Below, in pieces: positions 56,091-60,844 of a DNA stretch of 62,403 nt. The position numbers and the translations under genes were made by a program. The DNA lies in assembly GCF_009828775.2 (NCBI RefSeq), contig NZ_WTSY02000011.1:1-62403 (forward strand). Reading direction: 5' to 3'. The notes beneath the pieces are model-generated. The model ran no database searches and was not told the origin of the DNA. It was given only the letters and a program-made list of their open reading frames with translations. The DNA is from Erysipelothrix aquatica (lineage in GTDB: Bacteria; Bacillota_I; Bacilli_A; Erysipelotrichales; Erysipelotrichaceae). Every line of letters begins with the position of its first letter. Within the stretch, counting starts at the first letter, position 1.

Positions 56091-56177
56091 GCCCGAGTGG
56101 TGAAATCGGTAGACGCACTGGACTCAAAATCCAGCGAGGTAAAACTCATGACGGTTCGAGTCCGTCCTCGGGCACCA
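56091..56177 (+). tRNA. tRNA-Leu, anticodon CAA
   Basis: 87 nt with encoded CCA. Acceptor arms GCCCGAG (56091-56097) and CTCGGGC (56167-56173) pair fully; anticodon stem TGGA/TCCA with loop CTCAAAA gives CAA, reading UUG; a long variable arm and GGTTCGAGTCC T-arm fit a leucine type II tRNA. The 3' end is the apparent junction between core chromosome and an integrated element. Confidence 0.97.
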
Positions 56178-56190
56178 TCATATGTGTAAC

Positions 56191-56225
56191 AAGACCTAGT
56201 ATTTATTCTACTAGGTCTTTTTTTG
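56191..56225 (+). terminator. Intrinsic terminator after tRNA-Leu
   Basis: AAGACCTAGTA-TTTATTC-TACTAGGTCTT followed by T run. The next SD begins only a few bases later. Confidence 0.88.
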
Positions 56226-56245: not shown

Positions 56246-56482
56246 ATGACATTAAAGCCACTCATTAGTGTAATTGGTGAATATGTAGTTGATGAGTTAG
56301 ATAAAAATAAACTTACTCAAAGACAGTTCGCCAAAATTTCTGGAGTATCCCAGGCAACGCTAGTGAAAATTATTAGGGGCGACAGCAAAGACGGGATCAG
56401 CACGAAGAGTATTGACCTGTTACTGAAGAACACAAACACTTCAATGAGTGAATTGTTAAATAAATATGGTGAGTATAAATAA
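56246..56482 (+). CDS. Cro/CI (XRE)-type DNA-binding protein
   Basis: 78 aa consisting of a single helix-turn-helix domain: NKLTQRQFAKISGVSQATLV is the HTH core at about 21-40, with recognition helix around SQATLVKII. SD GGAGGTG is 7 nt before the ATG, almost inside the tRNA terminator, leaving no room for a promoter of its own; it may depend on read-through from the tRNA. The palindromic CAAGTTAGTTTACTTACTTG at 56690-56709 is a candidate operator (inference). Likely controls element maintenance or excision. Confidence 0.8.
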   Translation: MTLKPLISVIGEYVVDELDKNKLTQRQFAKISGVSQATLVKIIRGDSKDGISTKSIDLLLKNTNTSMSELLNKYGEYK

Positions 56483-56635
56483 AAAAGAGCCCGAAGGCTC
56501 CTGAACTGGCAAGTTCAATTTTACATCTTACAAAGGACGGCAATCCTAAGTAAGACTAACAACCAGCATCTTGCTGTTATAAACAGAAGATACAAATTGT
56601 AGTTTTAAACACGCGCTTTTTAAGCACCTGCTTTC
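56481..56635 (-). ncRNA. Small structured RNA transcribed leftwards
   Basis: A minus-strand transcription unit of about 155 nt with promoter and terminator but no ORF. Read on the minus strand from 56635, helices are GUGCUU/AAGCGC, CAGCA-AGA-UGCUG, the rod UCUUAC-uu-AGGA-UUGCCG-UCCU-uu-GUAAGA, UGAACU-UGCC-AGUUCA, and the final GAGCC-UUCG-GGCUC with U6. Two adjacent loops share UGCC. The terminator works only on this strand, since there is no T run on the other side. It might be a countertranscribed regulator of replication, a trans-acting RNA, or an antitoxin RNA; which is unknown. Confidence 0.65.
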
Positions 56636-56641
56636 GCTTAT

Positions 56642-56670
56642 AGTATACGACATTATTTGTCGCAAATCAA
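56642..56670 (-). promoter_or_regulatory. Promoter of the leftward small RNA
   Basis: On the minus strand TTGATT (complement of 56665-56670), 17-nt spacer, TATACT (complement of 56642-56647). The spacer holds the inverted repeat CGACA-TTATT-TGTCG. Confidence 0.7.
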
Positions 56671-56895
56671 ATTAAACATACAAAAAAAACAAGTTAGTTT
56701 ACTTACTTGTGGTTATATTATAGAAAGCATTTTATCTAAGTCAATAAATACTTTAAGAAGGTTCTTATCTTTTAAAGACTTTAAGGAATTCAAGGAATTT
56801 TATTTATTAATATGCTAACGCATATTGTGTCGCGAACAAAGTCTGAGTCAAGACCTTTTGTTAGAAAGTTTTAACTAATTTACTGGAGGAAATCA
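56671..56895 (+). promoter_or_regulatory. AT-rich control region upstream of the 421-aa gene; possible origin or leader
   Basis: Contains the imperfect palindrome CAAGTTAGTTTACTTACTTG (56690-56709) overlapping a weak -35 for TATTAT at 56716-56721, a short tandem AAGGAATTC/AAGGAATTT, the hairpin AATATGC-TAAC-GCATATT (56809-56826), and a second hairpin joining AACAAAGTCT (56835-56844) with AGACCTTTTGTT (56851-56862). The SD GGAGG follows at 56885-56889. The layout suits replication or expression control, but no iteron series was found. Confidence 0.4.
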
Positions 56896-58161
56896 ATGAG
56901 TTACACAAATCATAAATTTGAATCGAATGACTGGTTTCATTTTGGTTTTGATGTTTGGTATCAAGTAGAGAATGTACGAAATTTGAAATCTGAAATAAAG
57001 AAAATGCATGCTTCTAATAAGCGTTATCTCATGAAAAGTAAGCATGATGGAATGGTGATTGATGATTTAATTGAGTCGTACCTAAAGACTTCAGATGTCA
57101 CTAACAAGAATTGTAAAAAGTATAAGCAGAACAAAACAAATAAGAAACATCAAAAGCGTTTTGGTTCATACTTTTTAATTCACCTGGGCAAGTCCTATGG
57201 ATTAAATATGCAGGTGAAAATTGTACATGAATTCATCAAGCAAGTTTGTTACGGTGAAGAGAACTTACCATATTTTGCAACTACTTCAAAAAATGGTTCA
57301 GATATCTATATTCACCTATGGATATGTGATCGTGAATATGTCAAAGATGAAGCACGTGTATACGAAAGTGATTACTGGCAAAAAGATGGTAAGCGTTGTA
57401 AAGCTAATACACTTGGTGGTGTTCTATTACATAAACAAGGTGACATTCAGTATGACAAAGAGGGAAACCCCAAAATGTTAAACGGATGGCGTCAAACAAA
57501 GACAAGGATATTTGCAGAGAATTGGAAGACTTCAGCTAAACGTTGGAGAGATGCATTTGTCGCAGTATTCTATTGTGTCTTAAGACGTACAGAACCAATG
57601 CTTAAGTTCAAACTTAAACCAATGAGTTATGACGTTGAATTAGCAATTGTAGAAAGTGATATTAATGCAATTAAAGCGAAGAATCCGGAAATGAGTGAAG
57701 TGGTGGCTAGAAAGCACTTAGAATTTGAACGCTACCAAAATGACAAACAATCCAAAAAGGATAGAGAGTTCATAAATGTAAACAGAAACGCTGCAGAATG
57801 GAAAAATATTAAATATCGAGAAATTGCTTCTCTTCAGTACTTCGTTAAGTACGTCATACATGAACTCATGAGCGATGATATTGATAATTGGAAACAATAC
57901 GAACCTGACTCGTGGAATGAGCGTAGATACATTGACTTTGACAATCCGCCTACTGCATTAAGTAAATCACTAAAGGACTTATTCACACAATACAATCAAG
58001 TATTTAATAAGTGGGAATATACCTCTATAGGTGGCGAAACTCGAAAAATCATGTTTGCATCCAATGAAGAGGTAATTCCAAACTTGCGAGAGTTACGTGA
58101 TAAGTTCAAACACCAGATTAATTCAATTCTAAAAAAATATAAACCAGCATTAGCGTACTAA
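56896..58161 (+). CDS. Unrecognised 421-aa protein of the element, possibly replication- or transfer-related
   Basis: I do not recognise this family. The protein is soluble and basic, with no signal peptide. A region around 90-165 reads as strand (GSYFLIHLGKSYGL), helix (NMQVKIVHEFIKQV), strand (DIYIHLWICDREYV), then YESDYWQKDGKR, an arrangement seen in HUH nucleases; however, only one His is present in the would-be HUH strand. The second half is helical and charged. SD GGAGGAAATC is strong. Being the largest gene and placed between a control region and parAB, it could be a Rep or Mob protein; this is a guess from context. Confidence 0.6.
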   Translation: MSYTNHKFESNDWFHFGFDVWYQVENVRNLKSEIKKMHASNKRYLMKSKHDGMVIDDLIESYLKTSDVTNKNCKKYKQNKTNKKHQKRFGSYFLIHLGKSYGLNMQVKIVHEFIKQVCYGEENLPYFATTSKNGSDIYIHLWICDREYVKDEARVYESDYWQKDGKRCKANTLGGVLLHKQGDIQYDKEGNPKMLNGWRQTKTRIFAENWKTSAKRWRDAFVAVFYCVLRRTEPMLKFKLKPMSYDVELAIVESDINAIKAKNPEMSEVVARKHLEFERYQNDKQSKKDREFINVNRNAAEWKNIKYREIASLQYFVKYVIHELMSDDIDNWKQYEPDSWNERRYIDFDNPPTALSKSLKDLFTQYNQVFNKWEYTSIGGETRKIMFASNEEVIPNLRELRDKFKHQINSILKKYKPALAY

Positions 58162-59139: not shown

Positions 59140-59997
59140 ATGAGTAAAGTTATCGCACTACTAAACATGAAAGGTGGAGTTGGAAAAACAACTTCCAGCA
59201 TTAACATTGCAACTGGGTTTGCGAACAAAGGATACAATGTTTTATTGATAGATTTTGACCCACAAGCGAACTCTACAGATATCTTACTGGACATCAAACA
59301 AGAAGAAGTATTTATAAATAATGAAGTAACTGAAGCAATCAACTCGATGGACTCAGACAAACTCGAGGAGATCCTAAAGCATCTCAACAAATATAACTAT
59401 TCAGAAACGTTTATCGACCAAATGCTCTTCGATGCAGAACTTACAAAGACTTATCAAACAACGGTACCTAACTTGCACATCATCCCATCTCGACTTGAAC
59501 TAGCAAAAGCAGAGAAAGAAATTCGTAATGGTGATACTGCAGTTCATAACAGACTCAAGCGAGTGGTTAAAAAAATACGAGGAGATTATGATTATATCTT
59601 CATTGATTGTCCACCTATCATAAATGTACTTAGTACAAACGTCCTGAACATTGCGGATGAAATCATCGCTCCAATTAAGATTGACCGAGGAGCAGAAAAA
59701 GGACTCATAATGACTATCCAGCAACTCATTGGAATCGCAACAAGTTATGATCTGGACATTCTTATCCGACCACTCTTTACAATGGTAACTAACAATAATC
59801 AAAGTAAGGAAAGACTTCAGGTACTTAATACCTTTAACAACGATATCGTTAAACCAATTGTACCTAAAATTCGTTTTCAAGATAAACCAGTCAATAAAGC
59901 ATCGTTTGAAAATGAACTAATTATCAACAATAACAAAGCAAATGTCGGTCAAGACTACAGAAATGTAGTTGATTACTTAGACAAGGAGTGGAACTAA
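59140..59997 (+). CDS. parA: ParA-type partition ATPase
   Basis: 285 aa. Deviant Walker A LNMKGGVGKTTSSINI at residues 8-23, A' motif LLIDFDPQANSTD near 41, Walker B DYIFIDCPPI near 150. It lacks an N-terminal DNA-binding domain, so belongs to the short ParA type (Ib or Soj-like), somewhat long due to an insertion around 55-105. It drives segregation of the element, or stabilises its circular form. SD AAAGGAG directly follows palindrome copy 2; parB is 1 nt downstream. Confidence 0.95.
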   Translation: MSKVIALLNMKGGVGKTTSSINIATGFANKGYNVLLIDFDPQANSTDILLDIKQEEVFINNEVTEAINSMDSDKLEEILKHLNKYNYSETFIDQMLFDAELTKTYQTTVPNLHIIPSRLELAKAEKEIRNGDTAVHNRLKRVVKKIRGDYDYIFIDCPPIINVLSTNVLNIADEIIAPIKIDRGAEKGLIMTIQQLIGIATSYDLDILIRPLFTMVTNNNQSKERLQVLNTFNNDIVKPIVPKIRFQDKPVNKASFENELIINNNKANVGQDYRNVVDYLDKEWN

Positions 59998-59998
59998 T

Positions 59999-60844
59999 AT
60001 GACAATTCTAAATGAACTGGATAATGAAGCAACAAAACAACATCAATTATCCAAAATCATGAATATCGAGATTGAAGATATTGAACGAAACCCTTTAAAC
60101 TCAGCGCCCATGAATTACCTGGATGAATTAGAGGAACTTGTAAAGAAAAATGGAATAATTAATCCGATTGTTGTATACAAGGTTGCTAATCATCAATACA
60201 GATTGATCGCTGGAGAAAGACGATTCACGATTGCTAAGCGGTTAAACTATGAAACGCTACCAGGTCTCATCATTGATGCACCTAAAGACCAGATAGAAGA
60301 AGAAATGTTAATTCGATTGCATAACGTTCAGAGACCTGATGACACGGAAACATTGCGCGAAAAGATTACAGGCTTTAAATCGCTATGTGATATGAAGCGC
60401 GAGCGCGGTGATGAAGACGTGCAGGGTGTTAGAACTACCGAATGGATTAGCAAACAATTAGGGGGTCTATCGGCTCGAACAATACAAGAATATCTGACTG
60501 GTAAGTATTCAGAATCATACGTTGAAGAACTTGTTAGTGAACTTGACGGAACTCAAGATAGCAAACAAGAAAGGGTGCAAAAACCTAAATCACTAAAGTC
60601 GATTACAAAAGCAATGGAAAAATTGAGACGTGATCTAGAAGCGTTGAATTTACAAGAAAATGATTATGAGTACAAAGAGCTACTCTCATTTGAATATGAA
60701 AGCAGTGAGATGTTTGCCTATTTCGGAAGAAATGGTGCAGACATATCCAGGGCAAAGAAAAAGTTCAGTGATGAGCGCAGTCGTGTTGAATTATTGAAAG
60801 CAAAAGAAGAACAATTGTCATTAAATGACGAAATTGAAATGTAA
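59999..60844 (+). CDS. parB: ParB-family centromere-binding protein
   Basis: 281 aa. N-terminal ParB/Srx CTPase fold: IEDIERNPLNSAPMNYLDE, box I HQYRLIAGERRFTIAKRL near 63-80, box II LIRLHNVQRPDDTETLRE near 103. The HTH centre (TEWISKQLGGLSARTIQEYL) lies near 143-162, and a C-terminal dimerisation region follows. The GERR motif implies CTP-dependent sliding on DNA after loading at a parS palindrome. Such palindromes flank the gene pair (copies 2 and 3), the natural candidate sites. Confidence 0.95.
   Translation: MTILNELDNEATKQHQLSKIMNIEIEDIERNPLNSAPMNYLDELEELVKKNGIINPIVVYKVANHQYRLIAGERRFTIAKRLNYETLPGLIIDAPKDQIEEEMLIRLHNVQRPDDTETLREKITGFKSLCDMKRERGDEDVQGVRTTEWISKQLGGLSARTIQEYLTGKYSESYVEELVSELDGTQDSKQERVQKPKSLKSITKAMEKLRRDLEALNLQENDYEYKELLSFEYESSEMFAYFGRNGADISRAKKKFSDERSRVELLKAKEEQLSLNDEIEM

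Follow-up and report, generated by a model that had tools for sequence, protein, structure and literature searches.

A probable countertranscribed RNA gene upstream of a candidate replication initiator on tRNA-integrated conjugative elements of Erysipelothrix

Between a small Cro/CI regulator gene and a 421-aa gene of Erysipelothrix aquatica lies a stretch of DNA that is predicted to be transcribed against the direction of its neighbours, which raises the question of what this transcript is and what it might control. The locus is found in a 62,403-nucleotide stretch of contig NZ_WTSY02000011.1 (the window, referred to here at its full length), within an element integrated at the 3′ end of a plus-strand tRNA-Leu (CAA) gene (56091..56177, located with ARAGORN). 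The element continues on the same strand with an intrinsic terminator (56191..56219), the 78-aa Cro/CI gene adjoining the att site (56246..56482; HTH_3, PF01381, E = 9.8e-9; the XRE gene below), the 421-aa rep-like gene (56896..58161), small genes, and the genes for ParA (59140..59997; PF13614, E = 3e-40) and ParB (59999..60844; PF02195, E = 5e-15); the putative small RNA gene lies on the minus strand between the XRE and rep-like genes. A hairpin with a T run, equivalent to the terminator in the gap between the tRNA and the XRE gene, is visible at the matching place in other elements. The evidence assembled below makes it likely that the feature is the gene of a countertranscribed RNA (ctRNA) belonging to a plasmid-like replication module, carried on a conjugative element that has integrated at a tRNA gene.

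The proposed ctRNA, about 155–158 nt in length, was assigned to 56479..56637 of the minus strand on the basis of its promoter, fold, terminator and seven intact relatives. The promoter (TTGATT-17-TATACT) and terminator claimed in the original prediction are both present on this strand: the promoter, P1, lies at 56642..56670, and the intrinsic terminator, which forms helix H5 with a UUCG loop, lies at 56485..56502 and abuts the XRE stop codon. Promoter matches with the score of P1 are commonplace in the window (11 found, compared to 17 expected in shuffles), so P1 by itself proves nothing, and its conservation is what counts. In the relative G108 (see below), P1 is replaced at the equivalent place by TTGATA-17-TATAAT amid different surrounding sequence, which indicates a real promoter, and in the relative G082 the version at this place is TTGATT-16-TATAAT. 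The signals conserved across the copies are thus a TTGAT(T/A)-16/17-TATA(C/A)T promoter and a GAGCC..GGCTC-U run terminator, the five GC-rich pairs of the latter being invariant in the eight sequences. The region was also predicted to contain no ORF, and only TTG-started frames of 20–48 aa, none of them plausible, were found.

Folding of the 158-nt minus-strand RNA gave –56.6 kcal/mol (z = –5.66), with none of 200 shuffles as good, compared to z = –2.50 for the plus strand of the same region. The five helices described earlier were recovered: H1 (56607..56633), an outer helix with double compensatory changes and 100 percent of its cells paired; H2 (56559..56600), a long hairpin that persists in the relatives while its sequence changes; H3 (56525..56556), with the stem CUUAC..GUAAG and a divergent apical hairpin, which is the proposed main recognition loop; H4 (56502..56517), GAACU-UGCC-AGUUC; and the terminator helix H5 (56486..56501). 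The UGCC motif reported to be common to two neighbouring loops does occur in the window copy and is not conserved among the relatives; since relatives lack it, the pair of UGCC loops was rejected as a conserved feature. The H4 loop is different in every relative, and helix H4 is absent from G108, G129 and G166. An Rfam search, suggested together with the original prediction, returned no family at the gathering threshold and nothing near at a relaxed threshold (best match tsr26, 24.1 bits with a cut-off of 141), and a blastn search of the small RNA against 72,556 plasmid records gave no match.

Seven intact relatives of the small RNA were identified in Erysipelothrix, one of them in the window's own genome. 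The latter (C43; the window copy is designated C11) was found by a DNA search, is 89 percent identical to C11, and lies beside a tRNA-Gln gene. A search with the 421-aa protein led to the HDW6A element at tRNA-Val (HDW6A_Val) and the G108 element at tRNA-Leu, and a covariance model of these first four copies detected four more: HDW6A_Phe (tRNA-Phe), G082 (tRNA-Gln), and G129 and G166 (both tRNA-Leu), the G166 element being preceded by the tRNA 3′ end only. G129 and G166 score 40 and 33 bits with this first model, of which they are independent; their scores of 99–103 bits with the second model are those of sequences that are themselves members of it. A decayed copy of the small RNA was found in G185. 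The XRE gene, the small RNA on the opposite strand and the rep-like gene follow one another in 8 of 8 intact loci, where the tRNA comes first, followed by a terminator, the small HTH gene, the RNA, whose own terminator sits at the HTH stop, and the rep-like gene; in G129, the HTH frame extends beyond the RNA terminator. A weaker match (41 bits) in another genus, G020, is situated between a small regulator-like ORF and a gene for a 471-aa protein with weak primase and HTH matches. In this distant relative (L058 660–810), the terminator hairpin itself has the loop CGCCAA, like RNA1 of plasmid pSA564. The R2 matches in G044, G058 and G136 sit among ordinary chromosomal genes and were taken as chance.

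To what extent the fold is preserved among these copies bears directly on whether it is functional. Unconstrained folding gave a common arrangement of four or five helices in all eight intact copies (about 145–165 nt long), with z-scores of –2.8 to –7.0 on the minus strand and –1.5 to –5.2 on the opposite (plus) strand. The minus strand has the better folding energy in 8 of 8 copies and the better z-score in 7 of 8, the exception being G129. The original prediction was to stand or fall with compensating changes in the helices of homologues, and double-sided changes are indeed above both types of control: the model alignment contains 23 cells changed on both sides, compared to 8.7 ± 2.3 in shuffles and 5–9 in slid controls, figures that are supportive rather than exact because the sequences, which are few (eight) and related, were aligned by fitting to the model. 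After correction of two helix registers, 21 double-sided cells remain (9.2 in shuffles, 4–8 in slid controls), and 85.6 percent of cells are paired. After this correction, neither the number of pairs nor the number of pair types clearly exceeds the shuffled values (69 and 112 of 500), and the case therefore depends on the cell counts and the covariation score. In H1 alone, compensatory changes affect three pairs, and no cell is broken. Judged from these sequence comparisons, the fold of the small RNA is under selection.

The nature of the host element is best seen in G108, where it is complete: it spans 37 kb, its ends are the tRNA-Leu gene and a 16-bp copy of the tRNA 3′ end, and it encodes a MobL relaxase, a coupling protein, a TraG-type ATPase, a TrbL-like protein and a serine recombinase. 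Near the right end of the element, no recombinase gene other than that of the serine recombinase (L025 18467–19516) was noticed, and this type of enzyme would be an unusual choice for integration at a tRNA 3′ end. The same element contains a gene for a ToxN-type toxin of the type III toxin-antitoxin class (L025 14207–14938). In G166 (contig C1 708693–744284), the tRNA-Leu 3′ end occurs twice, 35 kb apart, with the RepA_N element after the second copy; apparently, two elements are arranged in tandem at one tRNA.

The XRE genes show 38–42 percent identity among the tRNA-Leu elements irrespective of the type of rep gene, and those of C11 and C43 are unrelated although the RNA and the rep gene of the two elements match. 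The XRE gene therefore tracks the tRNA target rather than the rep gene and may belong to the integration or excision functions; on these comparisons, it seems to be part of the integration end of the element.

The identity of the gene downstream of the RNA provides a link to plasmid replication. In G129 and G166, this gene encodes a RepA_N protein (PF06970, E about 1e-24), with ParA next to it in G166. In the other six Erysipelothrix loci, its position is occupied by the 421-aa family, which is unrelated to RepA_N, has no counterpart in Pfam, NCBIfam or PHROGs, and gave no relatives in plasmids, phages or IMG/VR contigs; its members occur in 35 of the 294 genomes searched from the order. Minus-strand terminators are present upstream of some more distant relatives of the 421-aa protein and were considered too unspecific to count. 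An AlphaFold2 model of the protein (pLDDT 73.8) predicted a HUH relaxase fold for residues 18–232, matching MobA of R1162 with Z = 13.7 and the NES relaxase with Z = 12.9 (Foldseek probabilities 1.00 and 0.99). Alignment with the MobA-like member L012 indicated that the family has other residues (T, W or others, then mostly Y) at the first two histidine positions of the metal triad and that the third histidine is kept only in some of its members, and the window protein is without two of the three metal-binding histidines. Given this degenerate triad, the 421-aa protein is probably not a nicking enzyme, nor is it needed as a transfer relaxase, since the G108 element has a separate MobL relaxase. 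The economical reading, based on its position, the ParAB neighbours and the relaxase-like fold of the model, is that the 421-aa protein is probably an initiator.

If the RNA regulates such a replicon, its recognition loops might be expected to be where related copies part company. Comparison of C11 and C43, whose probable initiators are 83 percent identical, showed differences at 13 of 23 apical positions (the H3 apex and the H4 loop) and at 10 of 135 positions elsewhere (p = 1.8e-7), the regions having been picked after the alignment was viewed, yet including both loops named in the original prediction. A cruder test of paired and unpaired positions in the same two copies was not significant (p = 0.18). 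For the pair G129 and G166, 15 differences were counted in the 148 positions of the RNA and one in the 196 positions of the leader that follows it (p = 2e-5), with mismatches enriched at unpaired positions (p = 0.02), and in HDW6A_Val and HDW6A_Phe both loops differ. As read from these alignments, diverging tips on persisting stems and flanks are the pattern of replicon-specific recognition. The H3 loop of C43 and of G082 is CGCCAA, a hexamer that has been proposed as the kissing loop in RNA1 of the RepA_N plasmid pSA564; mutation of three nucleotides there increased the copy number to the same degree as loss of the RNA (PMC8129170). The sharing of this hexamer may reflect convergence or chance.

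Any mRNA reading through from the XRE region into the rep gene would have a leader with perfect complementarity to the small RNA, and we propose the following mode of control. RNA polymerase would initiate at P1 and terminate next to the XRE stop codon, and the product would be a short structured RNA. The rep mRNA would enter from the XRE side, starting upstream of the small RNA, in which case the remaining leader of the rep-like gene would correspond to 56638..56895 of the plus strand, a region that aligns with C43. Pairing of the small RNA with this mRNA leader would reduce the amount of initiator made, by premature termination or by blocked translation, and consequently the copy number of the excised circle would be held down and like elements would exclude one another (incompatibility).

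Simple folding revealed no ON/OFF switch in the leader, as the ribosome-binding site did not become sequestered when the RNA-paired part was dropped, and the interval between the small RNA and the 421-aa gene contains no plus-strand terminator. Upstream of the RNA, no convincing rep promoter was found in the window copy, and no rep promoter common to all elements was found, candidate sites inside the XRE gene being present in 4 of 8 elements only. When the ends of the G108 element were joined, no promoter directed across the junction was detected at the threshold used. In HDW6A_Phe, the distance from the RNA start to the annotated rep start is 66 nt, which leaves little room for a separate rep promoter. 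The countertranscribed copy-number or expression regulator that was the first reading of the original prediction is supported by the covariation, the RepA_N gene downstream in two relatives, and the divergence of the loops.

Four other explanations of the feature were considered. A small RNA of the element that acts in trans, pairing through its loops with host or other element mRNAs, would equally have its own promoter and terminator, a stable fold and loops free for pairing. However, the divergence of the tips argues against a conserved seed of the kind that a trans-acting RNA would use: the loops, which would have to serve as that seed, are the least conserved part of the molecule, even between copies in one genome, and the RNA is always encoded in antisense orientation upstream of a rep-like gene, so that we regard this explanation as unlikely. 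The RNA might instead be a ctRNA that acts mainly on an XRE-rep readthrough transcript, and thereby controls not copy number but whether the element becomes excised and ready for transfer. In favour of this, the gap that separates the XRE gene from the tRNA terminator offers no obvious space for a promoter, and transcription may therefore originate elsewhere. Against it, the type of XRE gene varies with the tRNA target and is unrelated between C11 and C43, but the RNA keeps to the rep gene, which leaves this explanation a rather small chance of being correct.

A purely cis-acting structure, such as an attenuator in the plus-strand leader or hairpins of an origin or oriT, would dispense with a separate RNA altogether, and the plus strand does fold somewhat, both in the window and across the copies. 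The preference for the minus strand by energy in every copy and by z-score in all but one, together with the frequent G-U pairs on that strand and the preservation of its promoter and U-tract terminator despite changing promoter sequence, makes this very improbable. As for an RNA antitoxin of type I or type III, which like the trans-acting RNA had been offered as an alternative in the original prediction, a ToxN-type toxin is encoded elsewhere in the complete G108 element. Unlike type III antitoxin RNAs, however, the small RNA contains no repeated units in tandem, no ToxN-like or other toxin gene was recognised beside it in the window or in the relatives, and the opposite strand has no coding content apart from the end of the XRE gene and weak frames that start with TTG; we give such a function hardly any credence. 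Both of these earlier alternatives are thus disfavoured by the lack of conserved loops, of tandem repeats and of an adjacent toxin gene.

The antisense RNA of a replication module, which we favour, has its closest counterparts in the RNAs of RepA_N plasmids (RNAI of pSK41, pSK1, and RNA1 of pSA564), which are likewise encoded upstream of the initiator gene in the opposite orientation and consist of stem-loops and a terminator hairpin, with an initiator of the same family as in G129 and G166 (PMC5703833, PMC8129170). The plasmid RNAs differ in being about 83–100 nt long with two stem-loops, compared to about 145–165 nt and four or five helices here, and in residing on free staphylococcal plasmids rather than on chromosome-integrated elements. 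According to a 2017 review, similar RNA control did not appear to be present in the RepA_N plasmids of non-staphylococcal genera (PMC5703833).

In plasmid pIP501 (Inc18), the order copR - RNAIII - repR corresponds to the small HTH_3 gene, antisense RNA and initiator gene described here, but the initiator is from another family, and a role of the XRE protein as a rep repressor is only putative. RNAIII of pIP501 is a structured RNA similar in size to the small RNA of the window. That XRE similarity follows the tRNA target and not the rep type speaks against the CopR-like role, namely transcriptional repression of rep. The attenuation system of pT181 (RNAI/repC) also uses an RNA antisense to the initiator leader; here, in contrast, the sequence following the RNA-paired region revealed no attenuator terminator, and the initiator differs.

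Streptococcal ICEs of the Tn5252, Tn1549 and TnGBS families resemble the Erysipelothrix elements as integrated conjugative elements with plasmid-type replication and partition genes, and RepA_N together with ParA is already known from them, although the integration target and the main initiator family are different (PMC4701971). The word 'antisense' is absent from the main text of that paper, and no antisense copy-control RNA on an integrated conjugative element was described in the literature searched (open papers). Integrated conjugative elements are increasingly regarded as part-time plasmids with rep and par genes, and little is known about how their copy number is limited after excision. 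If the proposed control is correct, it would amount to a simple rule at the RNA level for which elements can coexist, and would point to an unannotated, relaxase-derived family of probable initiators. A broader and more tentative hypothesis, which we put forward as somewhat less than an even bet, is that the RNA forms part of an antisense cassette for copy control that is portable and works with at least two, and perhaps three, unrelated initiators on chromosome-integrated conjugative elements (RepA_N, the nuclease-dead relaxase-fold family and the primase-like protein), its loops deciding which of them may share a cell.

Several other features were observed in the leader of the 421-aa gene. 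Upstream of P1, a second promoter-like site on the minus strand (TTGACT-16-TATAAT, within 56744–56685) is followed about 30 nt on by a hairpin with an eight-T run; this promoter-terminator pair is conserved in C11, C43, HDW6A_Val and G108, with AG/CU changed to CG/CG in G108. An iteron-like unit, AAGAAGGTTCTTAT..AAAGACT.TAAGG..TTCAA (56755–56800), is present in one copy in C11 and C43, in two copies in HDW6A_Val (L019), and in diverged copies in G108 (L006). The palindrome AATATGCTAACGCATATT (56809–56826), which is identical in C11, C43 and HDW6A_Val and absent in G108, is possibly an operator or a parS-like site in front of the 421-aa gene. Directly before the ribosome-binding site lies a leader hairpin, AACAAA(AGG)..(CC)TTTTGTT (56835–56862), of which the loop is changed and the stem is kept across C11, C43 and HDW6A_Val.
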